A stretch of 34,039 nucleotides of DNA from the IMG/VR virus record IMGVR_UViG_3300032117_001064, positions 1-34,039 of that record, one strand, 5' to 3'. Source of the stretch: a virus. Every line of letters starts with the position of its first letter. Positions within the stretch are counted from its first letter, which is position 1. A program made the translations under genes and the position numbers. Shown piece after piece: positions 38-22,452 of the stretch. The notes beneath the pieces are model-generated. The model did not search any database. It saw only the letters and a program-made list of their open reading frames with translations, and had not been told where the DNA came from.

Positions 38-610
38 TTACGCTTGTTCGCAAAGTAAGTTAAGATTCACCACTACCAATTGACTATAAGCGATCGCATG
101 AGCGGCCTTAAATGCGTACTCACCATCAACCTTATCCCAAACAGTTTTAGCAATCTCTTTCCAAGTCTTGCCTATTAGGTGTCTCTTTGCGGGTCTGATC
201 ACTGCTAGGAACATGGCCAGTCTAGGAATCGTATCCACAGGCTCTGGCATTTTAAGCAAGGTATCATAATGATTATTAATATGGATTAACTGCGCACATA
301 TTGATGGATCATAGAGTTTAGTCCAATCAGGAGCCTGCATTAATTTTACTAAGTGCTCTTCACTCTTGACCTGTTTGTAGACATGTACGTTAAGCAAGTC
401 TAGTTTCATATAGCCACGATCCTCAGCAACTTCATAGTCTAAACTAGCTGATCCTGAGAATGGATCTACAGGTATATCAGTAGCATAAACACCTGTGTTA
501 TGACGAACTAATTTACCATCACGCAAGATACTAGCTGGCGTGACATCTAACAAGTTCAATACCTGTTCACGATCCGCAAAGTCTATATCAATGTCTGATT
601 TAAATTTCAT
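38..610 (-). CDS. Miniature DnaE-like (C-family polymerase palm) protein
   Basis: 190 aa. The protein reads as a condensed bacterial DNA polymerase III alpha subunit. Residues 6-11 are DIDIDF, matching the DxDxDF palm motif with two catalytic Asp. HNTGVY at 37-42 matches the HAGGVV segment. MKLDLLN at 68-74 matches VKFDFLGL, which carries the third catalytic Asp. IPRLAMFLAVIRP at 128-140 resembles the ALxALFRPGP segment, and YAFKAAHAIAY at 165-175 resembles YGFNKSHAAAY. DnaE itself is about 1,160 aa, so the PHP domain and most linking structure are absent. The start overlaps the preceding stop as ATGA. I recall similar short proteins in marine T4-like phages, usually unnamed. The motif likeness is seen; polymerase activity is not implied and a regulatory or decoy role is possible. 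Confidence 0.7.
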   Translation of the reverse strand: MKFKSDIDIDFADREQVLNLLDVTPASILRDGKLVRHNTGVYATDIPVDPFSGSASLDYEVAEDRGYMKLDLLNVHVYKQVKSEEHLVKLMQAPDWTKLYDPSICAQLIHINNHYDTLLKMPEPVDTIPRLAMFLAVIRPAKRHLIGKTWKEIAKTVWDKVDGEYAFKAAHAIAYSQLVVVNLNLLCEQA

Positions 611-816
611 AGGTATTCTGGCGGAATGAAATCTGGACCAGGAGTGCCTGGTGCTATGCCTATACTTTCTTGTGGTTGTTGTAGAGATATTTCAATCCTA
701 TCTATTTGTTCTCTCAACCTAGAGACATCATGACTGATCAGCGTGACTTCATTGCGTAACAACAGCAATTCACCTTTGATTTCATCAAACAATATTCTTA
801 ATTCGTCAGCTATCAT
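607..816 (-). CDS. Small coiled-coil protein
   Basis: 69 aa, not recognised. Residues 1-47 are rich in Leu, Ile, Glu and Arg with heptad-like spacing (for example LRNEVTLISHDVSRLREQ), which suggests a helical coiled coil. The last 20 residues are Pro/Gly-rich and probably flexible. No signal peptide or membrane segment is seen. The start overlaps the upstream stop by four bases and the stop overlaps the next start in the same way, so it is translationally coupled inside the unit led by the uvsW region. No function is assigned. Confidence 0.6.
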   Translation of the reverse strand: MIADELRILFDEIKGELLLLRNEVTLISHDVSRLREQIDRIEISLQQPQESIGIAPGTPGPDFIPPEYL

Positions 817-1868
817 AATTGATAATTTCCAAAAATTTTGATGATTTCTTCAAGTTCTTGTTTCATGATTGAGTTAACATTTAGCAACATAGCTTTATTA
901 TGATACGCTATCTGTTGACATTTGTCAAGCTCATTTTGCGTCCAGGGCATGGAATTTATATGATTAAGTATGTCAGCAACGGCCTGCATCCTTTCATGCA
1001 TGTCAGCGATATCATCGTAGTCTTCTGGCCAAAGATCGCTGTAGGTTTTAAATCCTAGGGTCTTGAGATTTTTTACATAATGATAAGAACCAAAAACAAC
1101 AAATGGTATGCCTGTCAACAATGCTTTGATGGTTTTTTCTGTCAAGTGGAATTCATCATGATCGTAAGCCATAGTTTCGCTGACCAACAATATCCGTGAT
1201 GCATTGTAGATGTTAATTGGTATGCTGGTACTAATGGTATAGAATTGTTTGATTGGAATCCATGGATTAAAATTATCAAAATTAATCTTTATATCTAATT
1301 CTCTACTGGGTTGGCCCAATTCTCGACCGTCAAAGTTTAATATATAGTTGTCAAATGTAACTGTGTCTTGTATGATCCTAACTAGATCTGTGCGCCAATT
1401 CCTGTCATTTGCAGTGCCAACGAATGCACAAAACGTCATGGGTTTATCTAAACTAAAAATATAATCTTTGTCTTGGAAATAGTCTATTAGATTATGCGCT
1501 GTTGCACGTTTGGTGTAGTCATATAAGAAGTAACTATAATGTAATATCTTATACTCGATACCAAAATCAAATTTTGATTGATTCCAGGTACCGTTAGAAA
1601 CAAAGACATATTTCTTATCTCGTGGGTAATTGTAAAAGTTGAAAGATACGTGAAATCCTTCTGTAGGCATTTCAATGAATATGGTCTTGTCTGGAGATTT
1701 ACGTATGGCCTCTAGATCATAGTAAGGAATCATAGCCACACCATTGGGATCAGCAACAAAAGGATTGGCCACTATTTTACCTGTGGTTAATGATTGATAT
1801 TGGCAGTAAGCATCTAATGCCAATATGATTTCGTTGAATACATTGTTATTACAGTTGATAGGGATCAT
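813..1868 (-). CDS. Putative glycosyltransferase-like protein
   Basis: 351 aa from the ATG at 1868. An open frame continues to 1922, but that part overlaps the preceding gene and adds no conserved-looking sequence. The C-terminal half carries TEKTIKALLTGIPFVVFGS followed by LKTLGFKTYSDLW. This pattern resembles the donor-binding region of GT10-like (fucosyltransferase-type) enzymes, where a Glu-Lys pair and a Gly-x-Pro turn precede the last helices. The protein at 32370-33371 has the same arrangement (TEKTIKNLYIGKPFLVMSG, then LRSFGFKTFGSW), so the two are paralogues. The truncated gene just upstream copies its C-terminal 100 residues. A role in glycan synthesis is inferred; family membership needs a profile search. 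Confidence 0.55.
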   Translation of the reverse strand: MIPINCNNNVFNEIILALDAYCQYQSLTTGKIVANPFVADPNGVAMIPYYDLEAIRKSPDKTIFIEMPTEGFHVSFNFYNYPRDKKYVFVSNGTWNQSKFDFGIEYKILHYSYFLYDYTKRATAHNLIDYFQDKDYIFSLDKPMTFCAFVGTANDRNWRTDLVRIIQDTVTFDNYILNFDGRELGQPSRELDIKINFDNFNPWIPIKQFYTISTSIPINIYNASRILLVSETMAYDHDEFHLTEKTIKALLTGIPFVVFGSYHYVKNLKTLGFKTYSDLWPEDYDDIADMHERMQAVADILNHINSMPWTQNELDKCQQIAYHNKAMLLNVNSIMKQELEEIIKIFGNYQL

Positions 1869-2190
1869 AATCTTTAAATTGTCTAATAATATCGTCCATC
1901 TGTGATCTAGCCACATCACCAATATTTAACAGTCTTGTTTGGTTATGGTAAGCGATTTGTTGGCTCTGATCAAATATGGTTTGATCCCAGGTCATGGAAT
2001 TTATATTGTTTAATAATTCTACTATGGCTAATTGTCTTTGTTTAACGTCCATGATAGTATCATACGCTTCTGACCATAGACTGTCATAGGTCTTAAATCC
2101 CAAGTCTTTTAGATTTTTATATACAGTATATTGAGACAGCGTATCTACCATGGTCTCAAAAGCAAAGGTCTGATTTGTAAACTGAATCAC
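1849..2190 (-). CDS. C-terminal fragment paralogue of the adjacent glycosyltransferase-like gene
   Basis: 113 aa. From about residue 22 it matches the C-terminus of the next gene: YKNLKDLGFKTYDSLW against VKNLKTLGFKTYSDLW, NNINSMTWDQ against NHINSMPWTQ, and QQIAYHNQTRLLN against QQIAYHNKAMLLN. Both end in YQL. The N-terminal part, where the TEKT and GxP motifs would be, is missing, so this is a partial tandem duplicate and unlikely to be a complete enzyme. The first codon is GTG at 2190, overlapping the upstream TGA; an ATG at 2151 is the alternative. It overlaps the full-length copy by 20 bases. It could be a decaying remnant or a retained small protein. Confidence 0.6.
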   Translation of the reverse strand: MIQFTNQTFAFETMVDTLSQYTVYKNLKDLGFKTYDSLWSEAYDTIMDVKQRQLAIVELLNNINSMTWDQTIFDQSQQIAYHNQTRLLNIGDVARSQMDDIIRQFKDYDPYQL

Positions 2191-2933
2191 AATCTAGCTT
2201 CTTTTAAAATACTTTTGATCCATTCAGTATCTGCTACATAGTCTTGGAAACGTCGTTGCCAAAATTCTGGATCTATCCAAGGTAGTATCAATCCAATCTG
2301 TTCGTCATTGAGTTGTTCAAGAAACTCCACACCCGTAGCACAATTAAATACAATCCAAGGACTAACGCGGCCATTGGCAATATGATGACAAATCCTATTT
2401 GGATTACCGTATCTAAAATAGTCTCTAAACCCGTTAGCAAACTCTTCATGTTCATCTGCATAATCCTGCATCTCCTTTAGTGCTCGTTCTAGTGCATCTT
2501 GTACTGCTTCTTTACGCATATAGCCTCGTAGATATTCTAAGTAGACCTTTTCATGGCACCAATGATCGAGTTTTTTGTTTTCTTTGATAACCCAATCAAT
2601 GAACATCTTGGGATTGACTGCACGTATATTGACCATGTGACGACCAAATTTGACAAAGGCTTTGTAGTAAGGACTGGCCACAAAATCAGCATATGACTTC
2701 ATCTTAGCTGAACCTTGTGTCATTTCATAGAAACGCAAGTATGCCTGTAAGCCAAACTGTACACCAGTTTCTTTTTCTTCCTGCCAGCGTCGTTTTACTT
2801 CACAGAGATGCACCGCAAGGCTAGATTCTTTGCGGAACTCTTTTTCACAATATCTACACTTATAGCTCGGACTTGATTGTTTTGTCGTCGTATCCGAGAC
2901 TGCGTGCATATTCTGCAATAGCTCGTTTGTCAT
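2187..2933 (-). CDS. Zinc-finger phage protein of unknown function
   Basis: 248 aa. Residues 24-43 form a single zinc-finger-like element, CxxC-x12-HxC (YKCRYCEKEF, then AVHLCEVKRR), a variant of the C2H2 finger with Cys as fourth ligand. The rest is a charged, mostly helical domain rich in aromatic residues (HWCHEKVYLEYLRGYMRKE). Proteins with a finger followed by this type of domain are, from memory, common but unnamed in marine T4-like phages. Nucleic-acid binding is inferred from the finger only. The first 74 bases overlap the preceding gene; ATG at 2909 is a possible later start that keeps the finger. Neither start has a clear Shine-Dalgarno sequence. Confidence 0.65.
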   Translation of the reverse strand: MTNELLQNMHAVSDTTTKQSSPSYKCRYCEKEFRKESSLAVHLCEVKRRWQEEKETGVQFGLQAYLRFYEMTQGSAKMKSYADFVASPYYKAFVKFGRHMVNIRAVNPKMFIDWVIKENKKLDHWCHEKVYLEYLRGYMRKEAVQDALERALKEMQDYADEHEEFANGFRDYFRYGNPNRICHHIANGRVSPWIVFNCATGVEFLEQLNDEQIGLILPWIDPEFWQRRFQDYVADTEWIKSILKEARL

Positions 2934-4479: not shown

Positions 4480-5943
4480 TTACTTTGATTGCCAATCTGC
4501 TTTTTCTACTAAAAAAGGATATGAGGCATCTTTATAAAATTGTTTACGTTTAGTTAAATGCCGTTTGGCAAACTTACATGTTGATGTTATGTCCCAGATC
4601 TGGACGAAATCCTTGTCTTCAGCCTTACGTATGCCACGCCCAATTGACTGGATAACTCGAACGAAACTCTTACCAGGCTCCACAAGCACAAGATTAAAAA
4701 TTCTAGGGATATTAATACCAACAGCAGCAACACCATAGGTAGCGACAATAACTTTGTCATCCATGCTTGCAACGTCATCATAATGTTCTTTTCTATCATC
4801 TGCTTTAGTGCCTCCTGACACAAATACACTATCTTTGATACGATCTACTAGAGCTTTACCTGGTGCTAGTCTATCTACCAGCACGAGAGTGTTACCTGAC
4901 TTACGTATCGTTTCTACTAATTGGGCGATGTAGTCTAATCGTCCTTCTGTTTCAAGTAAGTATCTCAACTCACTTTGATAATCTCGATATTCTACATGGT
5001 CAACTAATTGTAGAACGTTTACATGACATTGAGCTAGTACGCCCTGCTCTTGTAATTCACTGGCACTTAATCGGCCGATAACGTCACCTATTGAGCACTT
5101 TAAGCTAACAAATTCGTAATCTTCTTTAGGAATCGTACCGGTTAACCCCCACCTGATAGGTATATGTGCCATTACACCAGTAAGCAGAGTTTTAAGTGCA
5201 TCTGCTTTGGCCATATGTACTTCGTCAACCATAACACAGACAACATCCTGTAGGAACTCACCGATGGTGATATCTACTTCATGATTGCGTGATCCTTTAA
5301 GTAGGATATTCAAGCTCTGCCAAGTGCAGATAGTATGTGTACGACCAAACTCTTTACGGTCTCCAAAGTACACTCCGACATCCAGGCCCATGTTCTTATA
5401 GTCAGCTTCTGTTTGTGTCACTAAACTCTTGTTTGGAACTATAACGATAGTACGTCCATGTGGTTCACAACAATGACTCAGTGCCGCAGTGATCAGTGTT
5501 TTACCTGCACCTGTTGCTACTTCCTGTAGACATTGTGGGTTGGCTAAGAACTTGTTGATGATCTCAACTTGATAATCTCTAAGAACGATTGGTTCACCGG
5601 CCATTGGGTGCTTGGCTGGCCAAGTGATATGTTTAAATGTTTCTTCTGTTACCTGTTCAAAGTCATACTGAGTTTTATATTCACGCAGATCTTCTACTTC
5701 TAAACTATAACCCTGCTTGTCTAAGTATGCTATGACTTCTGGTAATAGATTGATGTAAGTGCTACCACCCAATTGGAAGAATGCCACTTTACCGTCCCAA
5801 CGTCCTAGACGGACTGCTGGTAAGTAACGTGCACCTGGGATCTCAAACTTAAACATGTTTGAAAGTTCTTTGCGTTCATGTAAATCTAGGCCTTCTATCT
5901 TTACATTAACTTCATCTCGGATTATTAATCTAGCTACAGCCAT
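4480..5943 (-). CDS. uvsW: UvsW-type RNA-DNA/DNA helicase (SF2)
   Basis: 487 aa from the ATG at 5943, which overlaps the preceding TGA as TGATG; a TTG one codon earlier is ignored. Superfamily 2 helicase motifs occur in order: Walker A ATGAGKT near residue 143, DEVH near 240, GLTGT near 266, and QSIGRGIRK near 432 (motif VI). The N-terminal 100 residues, before motif Q/I, match the position of the small UvsW N-terminal domain. T4 UvsW (502 aa) unwinds R-loops and branched DNA, shuts off origin initiation and supports recombination-dependent replication. Length and motif order agree. It follows the HARP-like gene directly and is served by the promoter at 7065-7093. Confidence 0.92.
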   Translation of the reverse strand: MAVARLIIRDEVNVKIEGLDLHERKELSNMFKFEIPGARYLPAVRLGRWDGKVAFFQLGGSTYINLLPEVIAYLDKQGYSLEVEDLREYKTQYDFEQVTEETFKHITWPAKHPMAGEPIVLRDYQVEIINKFLANPQCLQEVATGAGKTLITAALSHCCEPHGRTIVIVPNKSLVTQTEADYKNMGLDVGVYFGDRKEFGRTHTICTWQSLNILLKGSRNHEVDITIGEFLQDVVCVMVDEVHMAKADALKTLLTGVMAHIPIRWGLTGTIPKEDYEFVSLKCSIGDVIGRLSASELQEQGVLAQCHVNVLQLVDHVEYRDYQSELRYLLETEGRLDYIAQLVETIRKSGNTLVLVDRLAPGKALVDRIKDSVFVSGGTKADDRKEHYDDVASMDDKVIVATYGVAAVGINIPRIFNLVLVEPGKSFVRVIQSIGRGIRKAEDKDFVQIWDITSTCKFAKRHLTKRKQFYKDASYPFLVEKADWQSK

Positions 5944-7058
5944 CAATCTTCTCTTAATTGGCTCGCGCCATAGTAAATTATTTTTTCTGCTCTACGGGTC
6001 CAGTCCATCTTCTTACCACCAAACATCATTTCAAATGTTGTGACCATCAATGGTACAGGCCAGTCCCAAGTTTTTGGAATCTTCTGAGCATATACTACTT
6101 TAACACGATATGGATCATAATCGCTAGTCTTAGTCTTACCGTTTCTGTCAAAACGCACTATGTCAGATTCATCAAAGCGACTCAAATCTATTTCCATCAT
6201 GGTAGGATTGTAAATACAAACAGGATATCGATCAGTCTGTTCGGCATAATCAAATATCATGTTAAGATTATCTGCGCTTGGTTGTAGGTGTACTGCGTGC
6301 TTGGTACTGATATTACGCAAAGGTTCAGCACAAGTAACTAAAATACTGTCGTCTATAGCGTAGCCACCTAGTCCTGAATAATCAACTAATCGAATCTTAT
6401 TGTCTAGACTAAAGCCGCCTAAGTGTTCATTTATGTAACTTATTAAACTGTCAGCAGCATTAACTATTGTATATTGATCATCTTGTTGGACCAGTTTAAT
6501 CTCATATAGTTGCTGTTCACTGACTAGTATTTTGTCAAATAATTCTTTGACAGCTGGTGATATATCAAATGCAGCCAATTCACCCCAGGTATAGATCCAA
6601 TTGACATTAGATTCAGTTATAGCCATGTACCACTGTTTAGCGTCACGATCATATCTGACAGAGCCTTGGCTTTCTTCTTTATAATGATGTAGTTCTTTAA
6701 TCAACATGTCATTATAAGGGAACTTGACAATAATACGTCCATCTTCTATCCAAATGGCTTTGGTAGTGTCTAGTTTACGTACAGGTATACGGAATTGTGG
6801 ATTCTCAACTGGACTAACGTCAATGCCCAACTTGGCAAACTGACGACGGTACTTTAATACCAATTTACAAGCTAAGACAGCTTGTTTTTCAGTAAGCCCT
6901 GTGCCAAAGCTGGTGGTATTGGCCATGCTGTTGACTATCTGTATATCATAACGTGCCAGACTTATCTTGGTTACGTTAGGCATGATCAGGGCAGTAATGC
7001 CCACTTCATAGCCAGCTAGGTATTCGAGATAGTCTTCCACATGGGTATAGGTTATCAT
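5943..7058 (-). CDS. HARP-like / degenerate helicase-associated protein next to UvsW
   Basis: 371 aa. Residues 120-160 contain a segment (VRYDRDAKQWYMAITE, then WIYTW) that resembles the HARP/SMARCAL1 accessory fold, in which a W-x-hydrophobic pattern follows a charged strand. The C-terminal 60 residues (VPLMVTTFEMMFGG, then AEKIIYYGAS) resemble the end of an SF2 helicase RecA-like domain. No Walker A or DExH motif is present, so the protein is not an ATPase by itself. The distance to uvsW is negative (TGATG), so the two are coupled. A role as UvsW partner, or as half of a split annealing helicase, is inferred. The sigma-70 promoter places +1 on the start codon itself. Confidence 0.55.
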   Translation of the reverse strand: MITYTHVEDYLEYLAGYEVGITALIMPNVTKISLARYDIQIVNSMANTTSFGTGLTEKQAVLACKLVLKYRRQFAKLGIDVSPVENPQFRIPVRKLDTTKAIWIEDGRIIVKFPYNDMLIKELHHYKEESQGSVRYDRDAKQWYMAITESNVNWIYTWGELAAFDISPAVKELFDKILVSEQQLYEIKLVQQDDQYTIVNAADSLISYINEHLGGFSLDNKIRLVDYSGLGGYAIDDSILVTCAEPLRNISTKHAVHLQPSADNLNMIFDYAEQTDRYPVCIYNPTMMEIDLSRFDESDIVRFDRNGKTKTSDYDPYRVKVVYAQKIPKTWDWPVPLMVTTFEMMFGGKKMDWTRRAEKIIYYGASQLRED

Positions 7059-8979: not shown

Positions 8980-10065
8980 TTATGTGCGGAAATACTTGAA
9001 AAACCACTCGGGTGGATGTGCTTCTGCACCACCAAAATGTATGCCAAAACAGGATATCGGCAATCTTGATAGATTTAAATAGGCTGTGTTTCTGGCTGAA
9101 TTCATGGCCTGCGTGTTATAGTTAGGTGCTATAGCTGTTTCTGTGATCCTGCTCTTCCAAAACAAAGGAATATCTTCAGGAACGAATCTATAGTCAGCAC
9201 CTTCGGGATCTGCATTATAAAGATTCATAGTAGGATTACAGTTGGTCCAAAGATTGTCTCGATCTGTGAATCCAAAACGTACTTTCATATTGCCATCTAA
9301 GAAACCTGGGGGAATAAACAAAGGTGGAGCAGTGTTACGCACAACATCACCGGTATGTATGTATCCATCATAATGGCGTACCATTTCACGTATAGGTGCA
9401 TAGTAAGTAGCTGGTAATGTATAATGCCAATGATTGTATAAATCATCTGGACGGAACACTAGTTCATCACCATAGTCAGCATCAAACCAATATCTTCGCA
9501 TGCGTGCGGCTTTGAACATGTGGATGCCATCAAAATTATCCCAATGGAATTTAACAAAATTACCATCTTCAGTCAATTGACCATTGAAATGACGACTCAT
9601 ACGCATCTGTTCTGGCCAATGGCTATAGTAGACTACAGCATGAGGGTCTGGATCTGCTTGTAGATTTTTAATACCAGCCGCAACCATGTCTAGATCATAG
9701 TCGATGAATATGTGATCATCATTACCACCAAACCATATGACTTCATTGTCATCAGACAATATTTCATCACAGGTCTTGCGCCAATCTCTAGTATGATTAT
9801 TACGATAGTGATGTAGATCTAATTTGTCGCTAGGGAACAGCTCTTTACAATATGCTTCTAATTCCTGTTCACGGCCAGCATACTCAGGACCTAGAGCGAT
9901 ATAGAAATGGAATTTCTTGACCAATGGCGCCAGCACAGCATAGCTGGCTAGGCAGTATTTGAATATATCAAATCTATTAGATCTTGGTTGCCATGGTCCA
10001 CGCCCATTGTCATAGGGATAACCTATACGATGATCTGTGATTTTAACGTTAAGGACTACTATCAT
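8980..10065 (-). CDS. Putative glycosyltransferase, last gene of the sugar-activation module
   Basis: 361 aa. The N-terminal half has an alpha/beta pattern of GT-A type: a first strand MIVVLNVKIT, then FDIFKYCLASYAVLAPLVKK, a strand FHFYIALGP, and VIWFGGNDDHIFIDYD near residues 108-123, where Asp-Asp-His could be a metal-binding DxD-like motif. The C-terminal half is rich in Trp, Tyr, His and Pro, typical of acceptor-binding regions. The ATG shares its A with the TAA of the aldolase-like gene, so the protein belongs to that operon and would transfer the activated sugar. The family is not identified with certainty. Confidence 0.5.
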   Translation of the reverse strand: MIVVLNVKITDHRIGYPYDNGRGPWQPRSNRFDIFKYCLASYAVLAPLVKKFHFYIALGPEYAGREQELEAYCKELFPSDKLDLHHYRNNHTRDWRKTCDEILSDDNEVIWFGGNDDHIFIDYDLDMVAAGIKNLQADPDPHAVVYYSHWPEQMRMSRHFNGQLTEDGNFVKFHWDNFDGIHMFKAARMRRYWFDADYGDELVFRPDDLYNHWHYTLPATYYAPIREMVRHYDGYIHTGDVVRNTAPPLFIPPGFLDGNMKVRFGFTDRDNLWTNCNPTMNLYNADPEGADYRFVPEDIPLFWKSRITETAIAPNYNTQAMNSARNTAYLNLSRLPISCFGIHFGGAEAHPPEWFFKYFRT

Positions 10066-11045
10066 TAGATATTGTTTGCGTAAGTATCTAAAACTTGATA
10101 AATTTCGTGTGCCACTTCCATATCCCAGAAGCAGTGTTGATTTAATGCATCAATCAATGATTGGTATTCTGGAGTTGCAAAACAGTAGTGACCTGCTACT
10201 GTGATCTTTTGTTGGTCTTCTTGGCTAGCTGTCCATTTCTTCCAACGACCACTGTCTAATACTCGTTGAGCGAATGGAATCCATAGATTATCAAGTTTGT
10301 ATTGTTTGGCTAAACGTTCTAGTAATTTAGTTTGAACTACCCCTAGTTGTGGAGCGATATTCATAGCATGTACACCTACTGATTTACGTAGTTGTACTTG
10401 TTCAGCTGTCAAATAGTCAGCATTGTGTTCTTTAAGACCTACACCATTAGCATTGGCCACTTCGACCAGTTCTTTTACCGTGTCAGCATAAAATCCACCA
10501 GCTTGATGATCTTCAAAACACAAACTGCCTGTTTGCGCTACTACGAATTTCATGTTAGGGAAGTTCTTAGCAAAGGCCACGTCATTTTTATATTTGATCG
10601 CACCTGCTGCTACACCTACATTTTCTTCCGTGCCAAATTCAAAGCGGATATTGGGATTGAGATCTAAACAGAATTTAATCAGTTCTTCAGCGATACCATA
10701 TGTATCATCAACACGGCTAGTATCGATGTGTATTAGATCAAAACCCTGTTCAATATCATAGGCGATGGTTTTTTTAGTGGCGTCAACTGCATCACGTAAT
10801 GGCAGTGATTTTTCAACGTCTAAGAAATATGGACCACAATGATCACGGCATACTAATAGATAGTCTGTGTTGTTTGTTTTTAATTGTTCACGCAGTTGTG
10901 GAGTCGTCATTACATATCCGCTTTCTGCGTCAATTTGATTACGGCTAGCGATCAACATCAAAGGATATTGCTTGTCGTGGCTGTAGTCGCACAATGTATT
11001 AATAACTTCACGGCTCATTGGCCCAAAACCTAATTTAGAATCCAT
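10065..11045 (-). CDS. GatZ/KbaZ-like sugar-phosphate aldolase subunit
   Basis: 326 aa from the ATG at 11045, preceded by GGGA; a longer frame to 11084 overlaps the phosphatase gene further. Residues 30-40 (LMLIASRNQID) and GYVMTT, then YLLVCRDHCGPYF, DAVDATKKTIAYDIEQGFD and LIHIDTSR follow the TIM-barrel pattern of the class II tagatose-bisphosphate aldolase non-catalytic subunit family. In that family, motifs of type SNQVN, GYTGMTP and GGDHLGP stand in the same order. Length is somewhat shorter than bacterial GatZ (about 420 aa). In this operon it more likely makes or cleaves an unusual sugar phosphate than degrades galactitol. Substrate unknown. Confidence 0.6.
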   Translation of the reverse strand: MDSKLGFGPMSREVINTLCDYSHDKQYPLMLIASRNQIDAESGYVMTTPQLREQLKTNNTDYLLVCRDHCGPYFLDVEKSLPLRDAVDATKKTIAYDIEQGFDLIHIDTSRVDDTYGIAEELIKFCLDLNPNIRFEFGTEENVGVAAGAIKYKNDVAFAKNFPNMKFVVAQTGSLCFEDHQAGGFYADTVKELVEVANANGVGLKEHNADYLTAEQVQLRKSVGVHAMNIAPQLGVVQTKLLERLAKQYKLDNLWIPFAQRVLDSGRWKKWTASQEDQQKITVAGHYCFATPEYQSLIDALNQHCFWDMEVAHEIYQVLDTYANNI

Positions 11046-11505
11046 GTTTAATTCCCATTTTATCCATAATATACACGCAGGCATCCATCACAGCACCCTT
11101 ACCGCCTTCGCGTGGTGTTACATAATTAGCAGCCTGTATAGCTGTTCTCCAACTTTGTGCTGGGGCAATACTCAATCCCACATGAGGAAAGATTTTTGCA
11201 TCATAAGGTCCGTCACCCATGAAGACTGTTTCACTGGGATCTCCTTTACTTAAGATCCAGTCCAATCTATCTGCTTCTTTAACCATGGTCACAGGAAACT
11301 TCATATGTTCAGTGACACGATTGTAGGTGATAGGCCAGCCATTTTCATCAGCACTGACAAACTCAATCTCAATATGGGCACGTAGCAATTTTAATCCATC
11401 GTGATCATAATTACCAAAGGCTTTGAATGGTTTCCCATCTTGACCCCAGTAGAGCATGCCATCATTTAGGACGCCATCAACGTCCATGATAAATCTTTTA
11501 TACAT
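11035..11505 (-). CDS. KdsC-like HAD phosphatase
   Basis: 156 aa. Residues 7-12 are MDVDGVLNDG, the HAD motif I DxDGV with the nucleophile Asp. VSADENGWP near 50 is the motif II region, and MGDGPYDAKIF near 97 is motif IV (GDxxxD). EGGKGAVMD near 134 matches the C-terminal EGGxGAVRE loop of 3-deoxy-manno-octulosonate-8-phosphate phosphatases (KdsC/YrbI), which lack a cap domain and have about this length. Expected role: dephosphorylation of a sugar phosphate in the pathway encoded by the neighbours. It overlaps the fusion kinase gene by eight bases and the aldolase-like gene by eleven. Confidence 0.82.
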   Translation of the reverse strand: MYKRFIMDVDGVLNDGMLYWGQDGKPFKAFGNYDHDGLKLLRAHIEIEFVSADENGWPITYNRVTEHMKFPVTMVKEADRLDWILSKGDPSETVFMGDGPYDAKIFPHVGLSIAPAQSWRTAIQAANYVTPREGGKGAVMDACVYIMDKMGIKHGF

Positions 11506-13084
11506 CTAATACCTTTGAAAAATGTAATTGTGCTAGTGCTACTAAGAACTTGTCAAATGGTGCTTCATGTAATGGGCTCATGTTTAAGTAGATGATTGGC
11601 ACTAAGGTTTTAACTTTACGCCAATCTAGTCCTCTTGATATGACCCAACGTTGCAACATGTCTTCGTAGACTTTGACATCTTCTACACTAGGAATTTCTA
11701 GTGTAACATAGTCATTCTTTTCTTTATAATTATAGTGTTCGTGTTTGATATCTTTATAACTTAAATGTAACCCGCCTAGCATTTTAGCCAGATCATAATA
11801 TTGATCGCCATATAATTCACCAGCAAAGTCAGTGCGCCAATCGATAGCAGTAAAACGATCTTGCTCATGTTCATACAAGTGCATGACGTCTAAACTGTGT
11901 AGATTCTGGCCGCGTTCATAGATAGTGTTATCAAAGTGCAGGTCACCGTGGATGAATTTCCATTCATAATTAGAGCATAGCATATCCCAATCAATCTTGT
12001 CAAGATATTGATCGATACTCAACACTTCTTTACCGTTTACCACACAGGGTTCTGACCAGTCGCTGTATTTGACACGGAACTGTTCTACACGTTCCATAGT
12101 TTTATCATGGTAGAATTTACGGCAACAGGCTTCTGCTTGATCATTAGCTGGTGCTGGTTTCCAAAGTACTTTTTCGCACCAATCAAGCATTTTTTCAAAT
12201 ATCTCTGGTGTGTATTGATTATATACGATATCACCATTAGCATAATCATGTACTAGGAAGTTACCTGCTACTTCTACATTGGCTGGCATGGCTTCTGTGT
12301 TACATTCAGCTCGTTTGACACGCATTTCTGCTTGTCGGGGATTGGTCCAAAATTTTATAATTTTACCATTATCATTGTAAAATAATTCATCTGGTTTAGG
12401 AAAACTAACATCAGTGAATTCACTTGATAGTTCTTCCCATTTTTCGTAAGTACCAAAGTCTTTCCAACTGCGGATGGTATGAGCTTTTAGGTCCATGCCC
12501 CTAAATCCTTCATAGGTTTCTTTCGCATGTCGAGCCTGCAGATTCTTTAGATACTCATCATCTTTTACATACATCAAACCAATAAAAGCGTCGACTGCTA
12601 TCTCACTGGATTTTTTATTGTGTACACTGACTATTTCATCACCTTCACGTTCGACCCAACAATAATCTTGAGCGATAGCTGAATCTACCGGATGTACTCC
12701 GATCCAGTTATGATCTAGTTTATCTTCAAAGTTAAAGTCAAATAATGTATCACAAGCTAACCACATGAATCCACCACGGATATATTTGCTGCACATCTGT
12801 ATAGTTGTTGCAGGTCCTGTGTCGCCTTCTGCATAATTGTCGATGTCTACGAATACAATATCTTTATCTTTATGTACAGTACTGACATAATCTTTAACAT
12901 GTTGCCCCATGTGGCCACAGGCAACAACAAAACGTGTCGTGTCATCAAATTTTTCCATGATATGGCTGATCAAGGGTTTGTTATTATAAGGAACTAGGGC
13001 TTTAGGGATCATGCGGCTAAATGGCCCCATACGACGACCATAACCGGCAGCAAGGATCAATACCGTGAGTTTAGTTTTGTTCAT
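11498..13084 (-). CDS. Sugar-1-phosphate nucleotidyltransferase / sugar kinase fusion
   Basis: 528 aa with two domains. Residues 1-240 form a nucleotidyltransferase: LAAGYGRRMGPF at 11-22 is the nucleotide-binding loop, PKALVP at 27-32 follows, and WLACDTLFDF near 108 gives the metal-binding Asp. Residues 260-528 form an aminoglycoside-phosphotransferase-like kinase: IHGDLHFDN at 378-386 is the catalytic Brenner motif and IDWR at 414-417 supplies the metal-binding Asp. Separate bacterial enzymes of this pairing include AmgK with MurU and LicA with LicC. The fused protein would phosphorylate a sugar or choline-like substrate at the anomeric or hydroxyl position and then activate it as a nucleotide derivative. 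Substrate not known. Overlaps the cupin gene by 14 bases. Confidence 0.8.
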   Translation of the reverse strand: MNKTKLTVLILAAGYGRRMGPFSRMIPKALVPYNNKPLISHIMEKFDDTTRFVVACGHMGQHVKDYVSTVHKDKDIVFVDIDNYAEGDTGPATTIQMCSKYIRGGFMWLACDTLFDFNFEDKLDHNWIGVHPVDSAIAQDYCWVEREGDEIVSVHNKKSSEIAVDAFIGLMYVKDDEYLKNLQARHAKETYEGFRGMDLKAHTIRSWKDFGTYEKWEELSSEFTDVSFPKPDELFYNDNGKIIKFWTNPRQAEMRVKRAECNTEAMPANVEVAGNFLVHDYANGDIVYNQYTPEIFEKMLDWCEKVLWKPAPANDQAEACCRKFYHDKTMERVEQFRVKYSDWSEPCVVNGKEVLSIDQYLDKIDWDMLCSNYEWKFIHGDLHFDNTIYERGQNLHSLDVMHLYEHEQDRFTAIDWRTDFAGELYGDQYYDLAKMLGGLHLSYKDIKHEHYNYKEKNDYVTLEIPSVEDVKVYEDMLQRWVISRGLDWRKVKTLVPIIYLNMSPLHEAPFDKFLVALAQLHFSKVLDV

Positions 13085-13544
13085 GTTCTGATGCTATCCT
13101 TCCGTGACCTCTATTGGCTGAATCTTCTAAACGAATCACGTCATCTAATTGAGTTGTACTTGCTTCTGTATAATGTAAATCATCATGAGCGATCATGCGA
13201 TGGATTGTACCAGGAGGTGTATGGAATACTGCACCAGGTTCTAGTTCTTGTACTATTAGTTCAGATTTGATTTGAGCTATTTCTTCTGTTGAATAACCGC
13301 CAGCTAGATAACGCTCACAGTCAAATGGTTTTGGATGATATGCTAGTGCACCTCTTCCAATGTGTAGATGTATTGTTTCTGATTTGTATTGATGTACCTG
13401 TAAGCTGGTTACGAAACCTGCTCTTAGGATTAGTTCTTTAAGTGCAAATGGGTAAACTTCATTACCACCTTGGAGCCATGTTTCTTGCCCCCAGGGTTTA
13501 TGTACTACGTGGCAGTCTTCAAGTTTATAGAATTCTACAGTCAT
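13071..13544 (-). CDS. Cupin (sugar-phosphate isomerase-like)
   Basis: 157 aa from the ATG at 13544. AAGGA lies six bases before it, making this start better than 13547 or the further upstream 13568. HKPWGQETWLQ near the start resembles the KPWG motif of type II phosphomannose isomerase cupins. SLQVHQYKSETIHLHIGRG and PGAVFHTPPGTIHRM are the two cupin boxes with the metal-binding His and Glu residues. First gene of a tightly overlapped five-gene operon. It could isomerise the sugar phosphate that the following kinase and nucleotidyltransferase activate, or act as a sugar sensor. The late-type promoter at 13578-13585 lies just upstream. Confidence 0.72.
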   Translation of the reverse strand: MTVEFYKLEDCHVVHKPWGQETWLQGGNEVYPFALKELILRAGFVTSLQVHQYKSETIHLHIGRGALAYHPKPFDCERYLAGGYSTEEIAQIKSELIVQELEPGAVFHTPPGTIHRMIAHDDLHYTEASTTQLDDVIRLEDSANRGHGRIASEHEQN

Positions 13545-13577
13545 CATTGATCCTTCATTGAACGGCAATATTTTAGA

Positions 13578-13585
13578 TATTTATC
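13578..13585 (-). promoter_or_regulatory. T4-like late promoter box
   Basis: Minus-strand GATAAATA, one base from the T4 late promoter TATAAATA. Predicted start of transcription is near 13572, leaving about 28 bases of leader with AAGGA before the cupin start. The same RATAAATA box stands before rfbB, the 481-aa gene and gp32. Confidence 0.6.
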
Positions 13586-13617
13586 AGGCCGACAATTTAG
13601 GATCTTAAAACTTGGTA

Positions 13618-13779
13618 TTAACAGCAGTCACTAAAACTATCAATCCAACGTTTAGTACAAGCCTTGTCATTTTCAGCACAAGGTGTGTCAGCTTGCTGTT
13701 GTGTTTGGACTGGTTTAGCAGGAATGCTTGCGACCATAGCTTGAGTCGCTAAGTCAGATAAATCTGCTTGGTTTTCCAT
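13618..13779 (-). CDS. Small Cys-rich hypothetical protein
   Basis: 53 aa from the ATG at 13779, with AAAGGAAG nine bases upstream; the frame extends to 13830 but would start before this site. The N-terminal part is polar and disordered-looking (PVQTQQQADTP), and the end holds four cysteines (PCAENDKACTKRWIDSFSDCC), which could form disulfides or bind metal. Not recognised. It follows the inverted repeat at 13814-13834. Confidence 0.5.
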   Translation of the reverse strand: MENQADLSDLATQAMVASIPAKPVQTQQQADTPCAENDKACTKRWIDSFSDCC

Positions 13780-13813
13780 GTTACTTCCTTTCGCCTTTTG
13801 GGCATGGTTAAAA

Positions 13814-13834
13814 TATAGTGATTGTGTCACTATA
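13814..13834. repeat. Perfect inverted repeat, operator-like or weak terminator
   Basis: TATAGTGA (13814-13821) and TCACTATA (13827-13834) are perfect complements around a 5-base spacer. Transcribed from the minus strand the hairpin is followed by TTTT. It may end the 93-aa gene whose stop is at 13846, or serve as a binding site in the leader of the 53-aa gene. Confidence 0.55.
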
Positions 13835-13845
13835 AGATTATTTAG

Positions 13846-14127
13846 TTAATGTGGCAGTTTTGGTGCGTGCATAGCGTCTAAAATGCTGTCTACAGCATCA
13901 TACCAACTTTGTGTAAAGTCGATACCAGAATATACCCAATCGCGTAAGTCCGGAACGAATGCTGTAAGTATCAGGAATGCACTGACAATCCAAAATATGG
14001 TTTCTAGAGTGACTGTGAGTTTTTTGGGTTTTAGTTCTTTGGGTCCATATAGGCAGTGACGGTAGTGATACCATTCTTCTCTATTTGGATTACCGTGTGT
14101 ACCCCAGTTGCTATCTCTATTATCCAT
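13846..14127 (-). CDS. Small membrane protein, leaderless start
   Basis: 93 aa from the ATG at 14127; a further upstream ATG (14142) would lie before the predicted transcription start. The N-terminal 30 residues are polar and aromatic (GNPNREEWYHYRHC). A hydrophobic helix at about 42-59 (LETIFWIVSAFLILTAFV) is followed by a 30-residue soluble tail with a predicted amphipathic helix. Single-pass topology. It lies directly downstream of the cell-wall hydrolase gene, so a holin or spanin-like role is possible, but it has its own sigma-70 promoter and no lysis motif is seen. Confidence 0.6.
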   Translation of the reverse strand: MDNRDSNWGTHGNPNREEWYHYRHCLYGPKELKPKKLTVTLETIFWIVSAFLILTAFVPDLRDWVYSGIDFTQSWYDAVDSILDAMHAPKLPH

Positions 14128-14133
14128 GCAAAT

Positions 14134-14162
14134 ATTATACATGAATAATAGAGAAAAGTCAA
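14134..14162 (-). promoter_or_regulatory. Sigma-70 promoter giving a leaderless message
   Basis: Minus-strand TTGACT (14157-14162), 17 bases, TATAAT (14134-14139). The expected +1 is 14127, exactly the A of the ATG of the 93-aa protein. The same geometry is seen at 7065-7093. Confidence 0.85.
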
Positions 14163-14169
14163 TGGGTTT

Positions 14170-14766
14170 TTATCGTTTGTAGAAAACGTGACTACCAATT
14201 TGGTCCACTACGTGATGTGGCCAACTTGGATCTATTTTGACATCATATCTATGAAAGTATAGTGTATCGTTACCCAACGCTTCTATCCGTCGGTTTTCCA
14301 GATATACCCTCCGAGCGGCAATGTAACTGATATTGTTTTGACTGATAACTCGAGTCTTATCTGTTTTACTATCGCACATCCAGCTGAACTGGCAGACTTT
14401 AGTTTTATCATCAGCTACTGTAGTCTGTGCTACTACAGCACATAAGTCACGTGGAAACAATCCACTACGGGCACGATTAACTGTCACCTGTGCTACTGCC
14501 ATCTGCCCTTCCATTGGTTCACCATTAGCTTCATAGAATACATTACGAGCAAGGCAACCAAGTTGTCTCTTGATACTAGCTTCTTGTTTCTTGAGCATGA
14601 CTGCTACTCGTTTGTTGAAACTTTTTGATTCTACTTCAGCACTACCTACTGCTGATGGTATTCCTGTTGTTGCTGTTACTGCTAAAATCGTTATGGACAT
14701 TTTTGCCCAGGTTACGAACTTTCTGTGGAACATCTCAAACTTCTCAAATCGTGAGATATCTCGCAT
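14170..14766 (-). CDS. SleB/CwlJ-type cell-wall hydrolase (endolysin candidate)
   Basis: 198 aa. Residues 71-93 (CLARNVFYEANGEPMEGQ and following) match the start of the SleB-like hydrolase domain, in which the Glu of FYEA (residue 79) is the likely catalytic acid. The downstream VTVNRARSGLFP, CAVVAQ and CQFSWMCD segments follow the family order. Residues 18-42 are hydrophobic and end in small residues (ILAVTATTGIPSAVGSAEV), so a signal peptide or signal anchor is likely and export could be Sec-dependent. These enzymes cleave peptidoglycan glycan strands. GGAGGG lies seven bases before the ATG. The most probable lysis enzyme in this window. Confidence 0.82.
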   Translation of the reverse strand: MRDISRFEKFEMFHRKFVTWAKMSITILAVTATTGIPSAVGSAEVESKSFNKRVAVMLKKQEASIKRQLGCLARNVFYEANGEPMEGQMAVAQVTVNRARSGLFPRDLCAVVAQTTVADDKTKVCQFSWMCDSKTDKTRVISQNNISYIAARRVYLENRRIEALGNDTLYFHRYDVKIDPSWPHHVVDQIGSHVFYKR

Positions 14767-14811
14767 TGGCTTCCCTCCTGTTTTAATTATTGTCTATAGG
14801 CTGTGATTACC

Positions 14812-15015
14812 TTAAGATTTTACACCAGTCGCGTTGTTGCGATCGATGTAGTGTTGACATGGTTTAGTTGGCGTTCTCAATGCCACTAAATCATAATCGT
14901 TAAATGGAGCTAAATTCACTCCTGTACTTGATGTGTGTCTATGACACTGTTCTCTCATTGTGCAATATCTCCCTGCGCAATAGTATCTTGATTCGGTTTC
15001 ATTGTTGTTACTCAT
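14812..15015 (-). CDS. Small Cys/His-rich protein
   Basis: 67 aa. A cluster YYCAGRYCTMREQCHRH (residues 11-27) plus PCQHYI near residue 53 gives four Cys and two His, a plausible zinc or iron-sulphur site. No hydrophobic segment. GGAGGATT precedes the ATG at a good distance. The upstream gap (15016-15102) contains a weak inverted repeat (TTATCTCA with TGAGAATAA) but no convincing promoter. Not recognised. Confidence 0.55.
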   Translation of the reverse strand: MSNNNETESRYYCAGRYCTMREQCHRHTSSTGVNLAPFNDYDLVALRTPTKPCQHYIDRNNATGVKS

Positions 15016-15102
15016 CCTGAATCCTCCGAACGTAGTATTATGTAGCCATATGAATCTGGACTTTTATGCGTACTTTATTCTCAACAGAATGAGATAATTA
15101 AT

Positions 15103-15936
15103 CTATTCCAGACCTAGGACCCCTTGATTTGACTGTAAGAACTTGTGTCTATAGAAATTCCATATGTCATATAATTCATCACTTTCGTAACGATTTATGG
15201 CCATTTTTAGGTCACTTAGAGCCATAATTTCATCAATATAGGGGTGGTATTTAATCGACACTGTATCAGGTGTATGTCGGTATCCTAGGCTGTTGATCCC
15301 TTCTAATTCAAGGTACGTTGGTATCAATCTTTCAATCAAAAAGGTAAAATTTGGTAAACTTCGATCATGTGCATAGTTGCTTAAACCTTCACCAAATACC
15401 TGATGTTTGAATTCAGGATCCTTATCTGCTTCAGTGAAAAGTTTGCGAGTGAAGGCCATGAACTTTTTCCAGAACGCTGCACTACCTACGATGTAGTTAG
15501 CAAACACAGTTCTGTCTTTATCTAAGACCATGGCTTTGACATCAACATCACCGTAACCAACTTTCTTTAAAAAGCTCGAGCCAATGGTTGATATATTCGG
15601 ATGATGGATGTCGCCTTGTTCCCAACTGTTGGCAAAACAGGCTTCATTTAGTATGCAGGGATTTAACAGATAAACATCATATCCAGGATTATCATTGATG
15701 AACTTAAATACCTGTTCACCTGACAAGTTGGTTTTCTCTTTAAACTTCCAGCTGACGAATCCCCAATAGTCTAATTTTTGTTTGACGATTTTGTTGTATT
15801 CACGATCCCAGACATCCCATTCACGTAATTCTGGTCGGGGATTAGTAGTGTTGTCTAAGGGTGTAAATGCTGGATCGCAATGTGCTTTAAGTTCTGGCTT
15901 AAAGTATATTTGAAAAATCTTCGTGTTGTTTGACAT
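15103..15936 (-). CDS. Hypothetical protein of the glycan cluster
   Basis: 277 aa, soluble. The N-terminus (KIFQIYFKPELKAHC) looks like a first beta strand followed by a loop. The middle contains NDNPGYDVYLLNPC, where a strand ends in polar residues as in GT-A nucleotide-sugar folds, and FANYIVGSAAFWKKFMAF. Position next to two glycosyltransferases and a 38-base overlap with the preceding one suggest a role in the same glycan pathway, possibly as another transferase. I recall related unnamed proteins in environmental phage and bacterial glycan loci. No catalytic residues can be assigned. Confidence 0.5.
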   Translation of the reverse strand: MSNNTKIFQIYFKPELKAHCDPAFTPLDNTTNPRPELREWDVWDREYNKIVKQKLDYWGFVSWKFKEKTNLSGEQVFKFINDNPGYDVYLLNPCILNEACFANSWEQGDIHHPNISTIGSSFLKKVGYGDVDVKAMVLDKDRTVFANYIVGSAAFWKKFMAFTRKLFTEADKDPEFKHQVFGEGLSNYAHDRSLPNFTFLIERLIPTYLELEGINSLGYRHTPDTVSIKYHPYIDEIMALSDLKMAINRYESDELYDIWNFYRHKFLQSNQGVLGLE

Positions 15937-16648
15937 ACTTTTCTATATCCTTTGAAATATCTCTTGATTGTGGTATAAAGTAATTTTCTAATTTCCACTC
16001 TAGTGTTTCTTTATTTGTGATATGATGGAATCCCCAATTACGCTGACGATCTATTAAAGGGATCTGTGTTTGTATTTGTAACTTGCGATCAATCTGTCCT
16101 TGATCAAATGGGCACCACCCATAATAGAATATCACTAATTCATCTGAGTTATAAGTTTCAAAATGCCTACCAGGTACTGGATATCCTGACCCATCACTGT
16201 GGATAGCTCTACCACGACGTTCTGGAAAGTTTTCGCGGAAGGTAAATCCATCAGTCTTTTGTTTATATAAAGGAAGATCATGGGTCACTGGGCGTTGTCT
16301 ATCACAGTCAACAAAAAACATAGTAGGTAATATTAGTTGTGTTGATCTATCATCTAATATACTGTAGTTGCCGATCATCAGCTCTGTGACATTAAGACAG
16401 ATTTTCCAACCTGGTATGCTTTTCTCAATGTCCATAACTTCATAGTCAATATTATCTGCTTGGAAGTCTAGATTACGACTGGTTATGATATCCCATGTAG
16501 GGCATAACTCTCGTATTATCTCAACACTGCGATCAGTCGAATGATAGTCAATCATCACTCCATGATCAAATATCTGCCGATGATGATTGAGAAACCATGG
16601 TAGCATATACTCTTCATTATAGAAGTGGCAGAGGATAGTTTTTTTCAT
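15899..16648 (-). CDS. Glycosyltransferase-like protein (GT2/GT92 type), copy 2
   Basis: 249 aa. It opens with KKTILCHFYNEEYMLPWFLNH, the pattern of GT2- and GT92-like transferases, where NEE and the following helix bind the nucleotide. HGVMIDYHSTDRSVEIIREL carries the DxxSxDxS-type loop after the second strand. The protein is a paralogue of the gene immediately upstream (16652-17515): both share FYNEE, IFDHG, DYHS-DRSVEIIRELCPTW and TSRN in register. It is about 40 residues shorter, mainly in the C-terminal half, so acceptor specificity may differ. It overlaps the next gene by 38 bases. Confidence 0.75.
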   Translation of the reverse strand: MKKTILCHFYNEEYMLPWFLNHHRQIFDHGVMIDYHSTDRSVEIIRELCPTWDIITSRNLDFQADNIDYEVMDIEKSIPGWKICLNVTELMIGNYSILDDRSTQLILPTMFFVDCDRQRPVTHDLPLYKQKTDGFTFRENFPERRGRAIHSDGSGYPVPGRHFETYNSDELVIFYYGWCPFDQGQIDRKLQIQTQIPLIDRQRNWGFHHITNKETLEWKLENYFIPQSRDISKDIEKYVKQHEDFSNIL

Positions 16649-16651
16649 CGT

Positions 16652-17515
16652 TTATTGATGTAGCCCTAGTGCAGTATTCAAGGCTGCGATAGCTGATTTG
16701 ATATGTTCATGTGTTTGGGGATGAACATTTTTCTTTCTAGCCAACCAAGCTTCGTGTGCGGCTACCACCGGTTGGATCGCAGGGCGCATGTCACGGCTTA
16801 TTGGCTGTTGCTCTTTCTTATAACGATCCATCAATTGATCAAATGTAAATTGATGATTGGTACCTGCACCACCACCTGGACATTGTGTTTGTATTTGCAT
16901 CTTGCGATTGATACTGGCTTCTTCTAAACTAGCATAACCATAGTAGAAAATAGCCAGATCAGGGTACGTTGGCGCAACACCAGGATAATGCCTGCCTGTA
17001 GCTGAATATTGTACTGGATGATTGTGTATACTTCTAGGTGCACGTGGTACACTGCCATAGGGTTGATTCTGTGCGAAATCATTTACTATACCATATCCCC
17101 ACCAACGTTGTTGATATAAAGGTCTATTGCTGTCTAAGAAGAAAGGTTCTTCACGACGTTCCATGTCTGTAAACATGTATTGACCAACATATATCTGTCT
17201 TGGATTCATGTCATCATTTAGATGATCATAATTACCGAACAAGAATTCTGTAGTATTTAAACAAACACGCCAACCCTGCAAGTCACGTTCTGCATCCATA
17301 ATTTCCGAATCAACAGCACCTGGGCTGAAATCACCATTGCGGCTGGTACGTACTTCCCAAGTTGGACAAAGTTCTCGGATTATTTCCACTGAACGATCAT
17401 TTGAATGATAATCGAATAGTATACCGTGATCAAATATCTCACGATGATGTTTCAACCAGAAAGGTAATAACCATTCTTCATTATAAAAGTGACTGAGTAT
17501 AGTTTTCTTTGCCAT
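16652..17515 (-). CDS. Glycosyltransferase-like protein (GT2/GT92 type), copy 1
   Basis: 287 aa. The N-terminal 70 residues, KKTILSHFYNEEWLLPFWLKH and HGILFDYHSNDRSVEIIREL, match the downstream paralogue almost position for position. VDSEIMDAERDLQGW then provides the acidic residues expected near the catalytic centre. Both copies also share a late FYYG-hydrophobic segment and RKMQIQTQ or RKLQIQTQ. The C-terminus has an extra helix (KSAIAALNTALGLHQ). Begins one base past the stop of the methyltransferase gene. Predicted cytoplasmic transferase building a phage-directed glycan; donor and acceptor unknown. Confidence 0.75.
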   Translation of the reverse strand: MAKKTILSHFYNEEWLLPFWLKHHREIFDHGILFDYHSNDRSVEIIRELCPTWEVRTSRNGDFSPGAVDSEIMDAERDLQGWRVCLNTTEFLFGNYDHLNDDMNPRQIYVGQYMFTDMERREEPFFLDSNRPLYQQRWWGYGIVNDFAQNQPYGSVPRAPRSIHNHPVQYSATGRHYPGVAPTYPDLAIFYYGYASLEEASINRKMQIQTQCPGGGAGTNHQFTFDQLMDRYKKEQQPISRDMRPAIQPVVAAHEAWLARKKNVHPQTHEHIKSAIAALNTALGLHQ

Positions 17516-17516
17516 A

Positions 17517-18725
17517 TTATTCTACGTTTATTTTTGGAAAATATCTAATAAAAACGTCACCATCTTGGTCACGTTTACCCTTGATTTTACTTTTAATTTC
17601 TGTGAAGAAATTCCAAGCCAATGGTACGAATACCACTTTAAGATCTTTACATTGATCTAATACATCGATCGATTCAACTGGTATGTTACTACCTGGAGCA
17701 AATAATCCCTGTTTAAGTGGATTGTCATCGATGATAAAATCTAGATACAGCTTACCAAAATTGATCAGAGTATTACCTTTGGCAGCTGCACCGTAACCAG
17801 CAAGTACATAACCTTGACCTCTATAGTCATCTAATACTGCTTTAAGATCTTCAACTACCTGTTGGCAACGTTCTGCATAGACTGTGTAGGTATTTAAATC
17901 TTGTAATCCTGCTTGCTGCTCTTCTGCCAACACTGCATCAACTTTGCTTGTATCTTCTGCTTTTTTCTTAAATACAAACATATAACTATTACCATGGATA
18001 GGTGTTTTACGAATATCGATCAAATATAGACCAGCACGACGAGCCAATGCGCTCATGCTACTGGCATTGAAGAAACTTAGGTGTTCATGATAGATAGTAT
18101 CAAATTCATTATTACGTACCATATCTGCTTGACTGGTTTGGATAAACAATACGCTGTCATCATGCATGATATCTCGACACTGTTGTAAGAATTCTAGCGG
18201 ATAGTCATTGTGCGCAAATACATTCTGCGCTGTGATGATATCTAACTGTTTCATCTTATAGTGGTAAACATACTTTTCTTTGAAGTAATCACAGACTACT
18301 TCATGATTGGCGTTGCTTAACTTGTGTAGATTTTCAGCAGGATCAATACCATAGGTCTTTAGGCCCAATGCCTTGAAACTATTCAACTGGCTACCATCAT
18401 TACAGGCGATGTCTAAAACTGTTTTGGCAGCTGGTGCATATATCAATGTTTCTTTGGCGAACCAATCAAAGTAATCACGCAGTGTTTGGCTTGTGCCAGA
18501 CACATACAAGTAGTTCTTAAATAGCAAATCTGGATTAACAGCATGACTTAATTGCAAGTGTGTACAGTCTGTACATAAATTTAATTTCAATGGAAATTGT
18601 GGTTCAGCTTCTTCTGCTGTTTTTTTGAAACTGTTAGCCAACGGTTGTTCATTTAAATCCAGTGCTAGTTTTAATCGTTCACTACCACAGCACAGACATT
18701 CTTTTAGTTCTTTTGCATTATCCAT
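17517..18725 (-). CDS. Deoxysugar C-methyltransferase (TylCIII/NovU type)
   Basis: 402 aa. An N-terminal zinc-binding element uses CLCC at 10-13 and CTDC at 51-54. The SAM-binding motif I, VLDIACNDGSQL near residue 121, is followed by TYGIDPAE. YHEHLSFF near 215 is the conserved segment with catalytic His/Tyr candidates, and AGYGAAAKGNTLINF near 320 starts the C-terminal Rossmann domain. This three-part layout is that of NDP-4-keto-deoxysugar C-3 methyltransferases such as TylCIII. Together with the dehydratase and epimerase upstream it would make a branched, C-methylated deoxysugar nucleotide. Eight-base overlap with the epimerase gene. Confidence 0.85.
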   Translation of the reverse strand: MDNAKELKECLCCGSERLKLALDLNEQPLANSFKKTAEEAEPQFPLKLNLCTDCTHLQLSHAVNPDLLFKNYLYVSGTSQTLRDYFDWFAKETLIYAPAAKTVLDIACNDGSQLNSFKALGLKTYGIDPAENLHKLSNANHEVVCDYFKEKYVYHYKMKQLDIITAQNVFAHNDYPLEFLQQCRDIMHDDSVLFIQTSQADMVRNNEFDTIYHEHLSFFNASSMSALARRAGLYLIDIRKTPIHGNSYMFVFKKKAEDTSKVDAVLAEEQQAGLQDLNTYTVYAERCQQVVEDLKAVLDDYRGQGYVLAGYGAAAKGNTLINFGKLYLDFIIDDNPLKQGLFAPGSNIPVESIDVLDQCKDLKVVFVPLAWNFFTEIKSKIKGKRDQDGDVFIRYFPKINVE

Positions 18726-20399: not shown

Positions 20400-20409
20400 T
20401 TATTTTCCT

Positions 20410-21441: not shown

Positions 21442-21479
21442 TGATATCTCCAAATATTGTTGAATTTACTGCTTTTTAG

Positions 21480-21487
21480 TATTTATT
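21480..21487 (-). promoter_or_regulatory. T4-like late promoter box for the glycan cluster
   Basis: Minus-strand AATAAATA followed by CT, with predicted start near 21474 and about 33 bases of leader that hold GGAGAT before the rfbB start. One of four RATAAATA boxes seen ahead of genes in this window. Confidence 0.5.
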
Positions 21488-21511
21488 TTACTAAATTGAG
21501 GCAGAAAAATA

Positions 21512-21673
21512 TTATTGTGCTACTGTATTTGCTACTTTAGCTTCTACGTATTCTTTGATAAAACGGATAGCTTTACGGCTGCTGTCAAAAACGTATTCTG
21601 TAGTTTCGTCATTTTGTACCAAAATGACGACGAATCCATTTGCTGCTTTTCTAATTTCAATTGAATCAAACAT
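21512..21673 (-). CDS. Small alpha/beta hypothetical protein
   Basis: 53 aa from the ATG at 21673, with GGAGTAA six to seven bases upstream; the longer frame to 21751 would start before the predicted transcription start and inside the terminator. Strands FDSIEIRKAANGFVVILVQ and TEYVFD are followed by a helix RKAIRFIKEYVEAKV. This is a compact fold without membrane segments. It is the only gene of a short unit between a terminator and the late promoter of the glycan cluster. Not recognised. Confidence 0.65.
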   Translation of the reverse strand: MFDSIEIRKAANGFVVILVQNDETTEYVFDSSRKAIRFIKEYVEAKVANTVAQ

Positions 21674-21709
21674 GTTTATTACTCCATAATTATAGATTGT
21701 TACTGTAAT

Positions 21710-21738: not shown

Positions 21739-21740
21739 CA

Positions 21741-21766: not shown

Positions 21767-21778
21767 GGTTAAACTAAA

Positions 21779-21853: not shown

Positions 21854-21855
21854 CG

Positions 21856-22419: not shown

Positions 22420-22452
22420 AATTTCCTCCTTTTAAATGTGTGTCTTACATAT

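Follow-up and report, generated by a model that had tools for sequence, protein, structure and literature searches.

A split, minimal form of the DNA polymerase III alpha subunit was predicted for group 2.2 jumbo phages, and forms of this kind were proposed as models for ancestral DNA polymerase III (Iyer et al. 2021, Viruses 13:63, PMC7824862). A truncated Pol III alpha had already been noted in the genome papers of phages CBB and Atu_ph07, and both halves are labelled 'DNA polymerase' in PHROGs and RefSeq (phrog_11778 for the C-terminal half, phrog_11127 for the N-terminal half). Searches of the open-access literature yielded no experimental or biochemical test of the split polymerase. Other phages (for example Bas100, Riggi and mycobacteriophage Asterius) also carry C-family polymerases, but as single chains of about 965–1131 aa. 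In cyanobacteria (Synechocystis), DnaE is encoded by two distant genes split near the KSHAAAY region, and the halves are ligated by an intein. The gene described here lies in a window of 34,039 bases of viral DNA, the whole stretch that was analysed, and encodes alphaC, the C-terminal half of a minimal, DnaE-like polymerase of the C family that is split in two. It is a further environmental representative of the split Pol III alpha already described and is not new in principle; with the description in PMC7824862 it has in common the C half and T4-type recombination genes, and its large relatives also have in common a distant N half (alphaN) and a B-family polymerase.

The alphaC gene occupies 38..610 on the minus strand, starts with an ATG at 610 and encodes 190 aa; its assignment was made by profile and structure model. 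Five segments in DnaE order had been read from the sequence in the initial annotation, and all were found at the residues given there: DIDIDF (residues 6–11, codons 578..595, minus strand; counterpart of E. coli DnaE DFDVDF 401–406), HNTGVY (37–42), MKLDLLN (68–74, codons 389..409, minus strand; counterpart of the K553-F-D555 strand), LAMFLAVIRP (131–140) and YAFKAAHAIAY (165–175, codons 86..118, minus strand; counterpart of the K758/H760/Y764 finger motif). Directly upstream, a 69-aa ORF (607..816, minus strand) ends in a stop codon that overlaps the alphaC start (ATGA), which suggests translational coupling of the two genes; an identical 4-base overlap is present at the alphaC start in Phosso. 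The small product of this ORF is coiled-coil-like, and small genes occupy the equivalent place in other relatives.

Nothing relevant was returned by a Pfam scan with the single alphaC sequence, and a HMMER search of PDB sequences with the alphaC profile gave no matches, so that profile–profile or structure comparison was needed. A cadherin match in the single-sequence Pfam scan was rejected as chance and is superseded by the profile–profile and fold comparisons. In PHROGs, alphaC matched phrog_11778 ('DNA polymerase') over residues 2–189 with E 9.7e-59, and the full-length DnaE family phrog_405 was matched weakly (E 0.0017). When a profile of 64 alphaC sequences was aligned with ten DnaE proteins by hhalign, a score of 82.1 (P 3.3e-10) was obtained, well above the best of 15 column-shuffled controls (28.6, P 0.01) and the reversed control (21.3). 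Judged from these profiles, the five-segment likeness to DnaE is not due to chance. Full-length alphaC homologs were found in 63 phage records in GenBank, mostly of jumbo phages (among them RaK2, PA5oct, GAP32, 121Q, CBB, Atu_ph07, Phosso, XacN1 and SCTP-2), several of them labelled 'DNA polymerase' or 'DnaE-like DNA polymerase III alpha', and IMG/VR holds at least 392 further homologs; the alphaC of the window shares 34–52% identity with ten named-phage representatives. A search for further fragments with the DnaE fingers model PF17657 gave only alphaC, from two phages, above the cut-off, and the weaker matches were nearly all alphaC too.

The AlphaFold2 model of alphaC (mean pLDDT 91.8, pTM 0.81) places DIDIDF on a strand at residues 7–11 and KLDLL on a strand at 70–74, and fits the palm and fingers of DnaE and PolC over nearly its full length. 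This fit agrees with a convergence of the three catalytic Asp, the point for which the initial annotation had proposed such a model. In VIA-align the first 14 rows were all C-family polymerases (Z 9.3 to 6.2; 176–186 of 190 residues superposed, rmsd 3.4–4.7), with Z 9.3 against both 2hnh and 3f2b (176–185 residues, rmsd 3.5–4.0), and the first unrelated fold followed at Z 3.5. The matched range of E. coli DnaE was 399–779. On PolC (3f2b), alphaC residue 1 falls on 968, which would put D6 and D8 on 973 and 975 if the alignment is ungapped; these two residues we take to be the PolC catalytic pair. Foldseek gave no E below 0.008 with alphaC or with alphaN, and the top rows were nearly all DnaE or PolC.

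Residue by residue, alphaC D6, D8 and D10 align with D401, D403 and D405 of E. coli DnaE (P400-D401-F402-D403-V404-D405), H37 with H511, K69 and D71 with K553 and D555, the RP pair with its DnaE counterpart, and K168, H171 and Y175 with K758, H760 and Y764. The three palm aspartates claimed earlier are thus retained, but their assignment to D8, D10 and D71 was displaced by one position within motif 1; the alignment points to D6, D8 and D71 (D401, D403 and D555 in E. coli) as the catalytic triad. D6, D8, D10, D71, H37, G40, K69, R139, P140, K142, H171 and Y175 are invariant in 64/64 alphaC relatives, and selection on the gene is strongly purifying, with a median dN/dS of 0.09 against 43 close relatives, a value to which related contigs contribute identical sequences more than once. 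The invariant residues bear on the idea that alphaC does no catalysis and serves the phage replisome as a structural or regulatory subunit, with the DnaE palm surface as its scaffold. Its small size and its place alongside replication genes would suit such a role, but metal ligands are normally lost in derivatives of this kind, and here the three aspartates, H37, K69, R139, H171 and Y175 are all kept, which makes this reading very improbable. The GRGS motif of the N-terminal palm is absent from alphaC and is carried in relatives by alphaN.

When nine named complete jumbo phages were searched with PF07733, a second small, distant ORF, alphaN, scored above the cut-off in all nine. It is about 170–180 aa long; the RaK2 copy, ORF162, has 172 aa and is separated by 34 kb from ORF124, which encodes alphaC. 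All nine proteins match PF07733 and phrog_11127 ('DNA polymerase'). The alphaN profile matched E. coli DnaE in the PDB with E 3.6e-5 and DnaE in hhalign with P 3e-12, and the alphaN model (isolated chain; pLDDT 90.4, pTM 0.64) superposes on E. coli DnaE 279–393; among C-family chains the highest Z was 12.6. Since alphaN corresponds to DnaE 279–393 and alphaC to 399–779, the halves abut. GRGS is contained in the alphaN frames and invariant in 56 alphaN sequences; the frames stop at EFLK or only a few residues away from it, and alphaC begins at TDIDIDF. We weighed an intein-mediated split and discarded it, since alphaN frames end and alphaC frames start at the split site. In common with the cyanobacterial DnaE the phage polymerase has two distant genes; it differs in that the split precedes the DIDIDF strand and that the frames leave no room for intein sequence.

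Both halves were single-copy and co-occurred in every record of at least 200 kb, namely 9/9 named phages and 8/8 IMG/VR genomes with at least one of the halves; in the latter, part of a set of 15 IMG/VR records, they also lay far apart, and in the shorter records one half or the other was missing, as expected for fragments. Neither a fused alphaN–alphaC ORF nor an adjacent pair was present among 268 loci, and none of 92 alphaN and 165 alphaC frames was fused. The PF07733 search found no alphaN in the window, a fragment of 34 kb, and the pair is accordingly inferred from relatives. The proposal of a miniature C-family core therefore holds for the homology of alphaC to the DnaE palm and fingers and fails for its being self-contained, since the N-terminal palm with GRGS is a separate gene in these 9/9 and 8/8 genomes. 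In IMGVR_UViG_3300027804_000045 (150 kb), an unsplit, PHP-less mini DnaE of 559 aa with palm and fingers motifs was seen at 1507–3186, a third DnaE-like protein besides the alphaN and alphaC of that record.

Palm and fingers motifs, catalytic aspartates and fold are common to the phage pair and to bacterial DnaE and PolC, but the pair amounts to about 360 aa in two chains compared with about 1000–1200 in one, and is always divided between FLN and DIDIDF; no PHP domain or thumb was detected in it, nor any clamp-binding, OB or tau region. PHP (PF02811) and HHH_6 (PF14579) were found in 0/17 genomes, the same searches being positive in 14/14 and 13/14 controls. A thumb cannot be fitted into the alignment of alphaC with DnaE, and the match of the model stops at E. 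coli 779, ahead of the clamp-binding, OB and tau-binding regions. A partner of the DnaQ-like exonuclease type is not constant, being above the cut-off in 9/17 genomes. A decoy for the host replisome had also been raised in the initial annotation. AlphaC would then be a piece of DnaE that acts as decoy or inhibitor by sequestering clamp, epsilon, tau or primer–template, and its small size and its resemblance to a fragment of host DnaE are in favour of this. The idea is left unsupported and we regard it as highly doubtful: the regions that bind clamp and tau are those beyond the end of the match, a second half that fits alphaC is conserved along with it, no catalytic residue varies among relatives with very diverse hosts, the dN/dS is low as given above, and relatives keep the same gene order in phages whose hosts are unrelated.

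Processive polymerases do not usually lack the thumb, and template-directed synthesis of DNA by the pair is therefore not assured. The pair might instead be an active nucleotidyltransferase that does not copy a template (a terminal transferase, or an end-healing or nucleotide-modifying enzyme) and has lost its DNA-gripping domains. The missing thumb, the 0/17 result for PHP and HHH_6 and the pol-beta nucleotidyltransferase fold of the C-family palm (PMC7824862) are in its favour; the RP and KxxHxxxY motifs of the fingers, which place template and incoming nucleotide, are nevertheless invariant as well, and the gene is located among replication and recombination genes, so that we consider this reading unlikely.

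A B-family polymerase, the gp43 that the initial annotation had expected of such a phage, was found in the genomes of relatives (9/9 named phages and 8/8 IMG/VR genomes of at least 200 kb) but was absent from the 34 kb of the window; its DTDS motif is kept in the polymerase of 8/9 named phages (frame inspected). Because gp43 accompanies the alphaN/alphaC pair, the split polymerase is an extra enzyme. In PA5oct (NC_071039.1, about 217618–221395), B-family matches were seen in two open frames of 825 and 379 aa, and gp43 itself may be split or interrupted there.

We consider it likely that alphaC is one half of a two-subunit minimal C-family DNA polymerase, with alphaN as its partner, and that this enzyme is accessory to the B-family gp43. 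In this proposal alphaN would supply the N-terminal palm, whose GRGS motif would bind the triphosphate. From alphaC would come the two-metal aspartates D6, D8 and D71, the strands with HxxG and KxD, and a shortened fingers region that carries RP and KxxHxxxY. The two chains would dock without an intein, rebuilding a C-family palm active site at which nucleotides would be added, and the enzyme would work beside gp43; its probable role is in gap filling, in repair or in replication that depends on recombination. The pair has no counterpart of the thumb or of the PHP, clamp-binding and OB regions, and the grip on DNA would therefore have to come from partners, plausibly gp43 and the primase–helicase or a co-inherited C2H2-like protein.

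The neighbourhood of alphaC is one of replication and recombination. The window encodes a UvsW-like helicase (4480..5946, minus strand), the T4-type recombination proteins UvsY (27910..28365) and UvsX (28607..29686) and a gp32-like SSB (30504..31523), and in the neighbourhood with relatives included, UvsX/UvsW and primase gp61/helicase gp41 are found. Between UvsY/UvsX and UvsW, at 8980..27018 (minus strand), lies a long block of apparent sugar and small-molecule genes, with a GatZ/KbaZ-like protein (10065..11084), an NTP transferase (11498..13084) and, assigned by eye, an apparent sugar epimerase/dehydratase (20410..21453), peroxiredoxin (21856..22419) and SAH hydrolase (22604..23890), all on the minus strand. 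A similar C-terminal stretch (LGFKTY/SFGFKTF...) was seen in three minus-strand ORFs (813..1922, 1849..2190 and 32370..33371), of which 1849..2190 resembles a truncated duplicate beside 813..1922.

The C2H2-like protein is encoded at 2187..2933 (minus strand), is a 248-aa homolog of phrog_11058 and has a weak C2H2 zinc-finger match at residues 24–44. Homologs are present in 17/17 large genomes carrying the polymerase halves, near alphaC in most of them, the exceptions being XacN1, CM1 and one IMG/VR genome. GenBank has 61 records with a homolog, compared with 63 for alphaC. As these phages are all related, a shared complex is weakly supported by such co-inheritance. No mention of this companion was found in the passages of PMC7824862 that were searched. 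It is the best candidate to replace the missing DNA-binding parts. A bolder extension, which we think rather improbable, is that alphaN, alphaC and the phrog_11058 protein form a three-part C-family polymerase without thumb or PHP, in which the zinc-finger-like protein replaces the DNA-gripping domains; if true, no smaller C-family polymerase would be known, and a B-family replisome would contain a second polymerase.

If alphaN and alphaC form a working enzyme, the minimum for C-family polymerisation would be about 360 residues, a polymerase palm would be divisible inside its active site, and bacterial-type and B-family polymerases would operate within one phage replisome. Such an enzyme would bear directly on the proposal of Iyer et al. 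(PMC7824862) for the ancestral DNA polymerase III.
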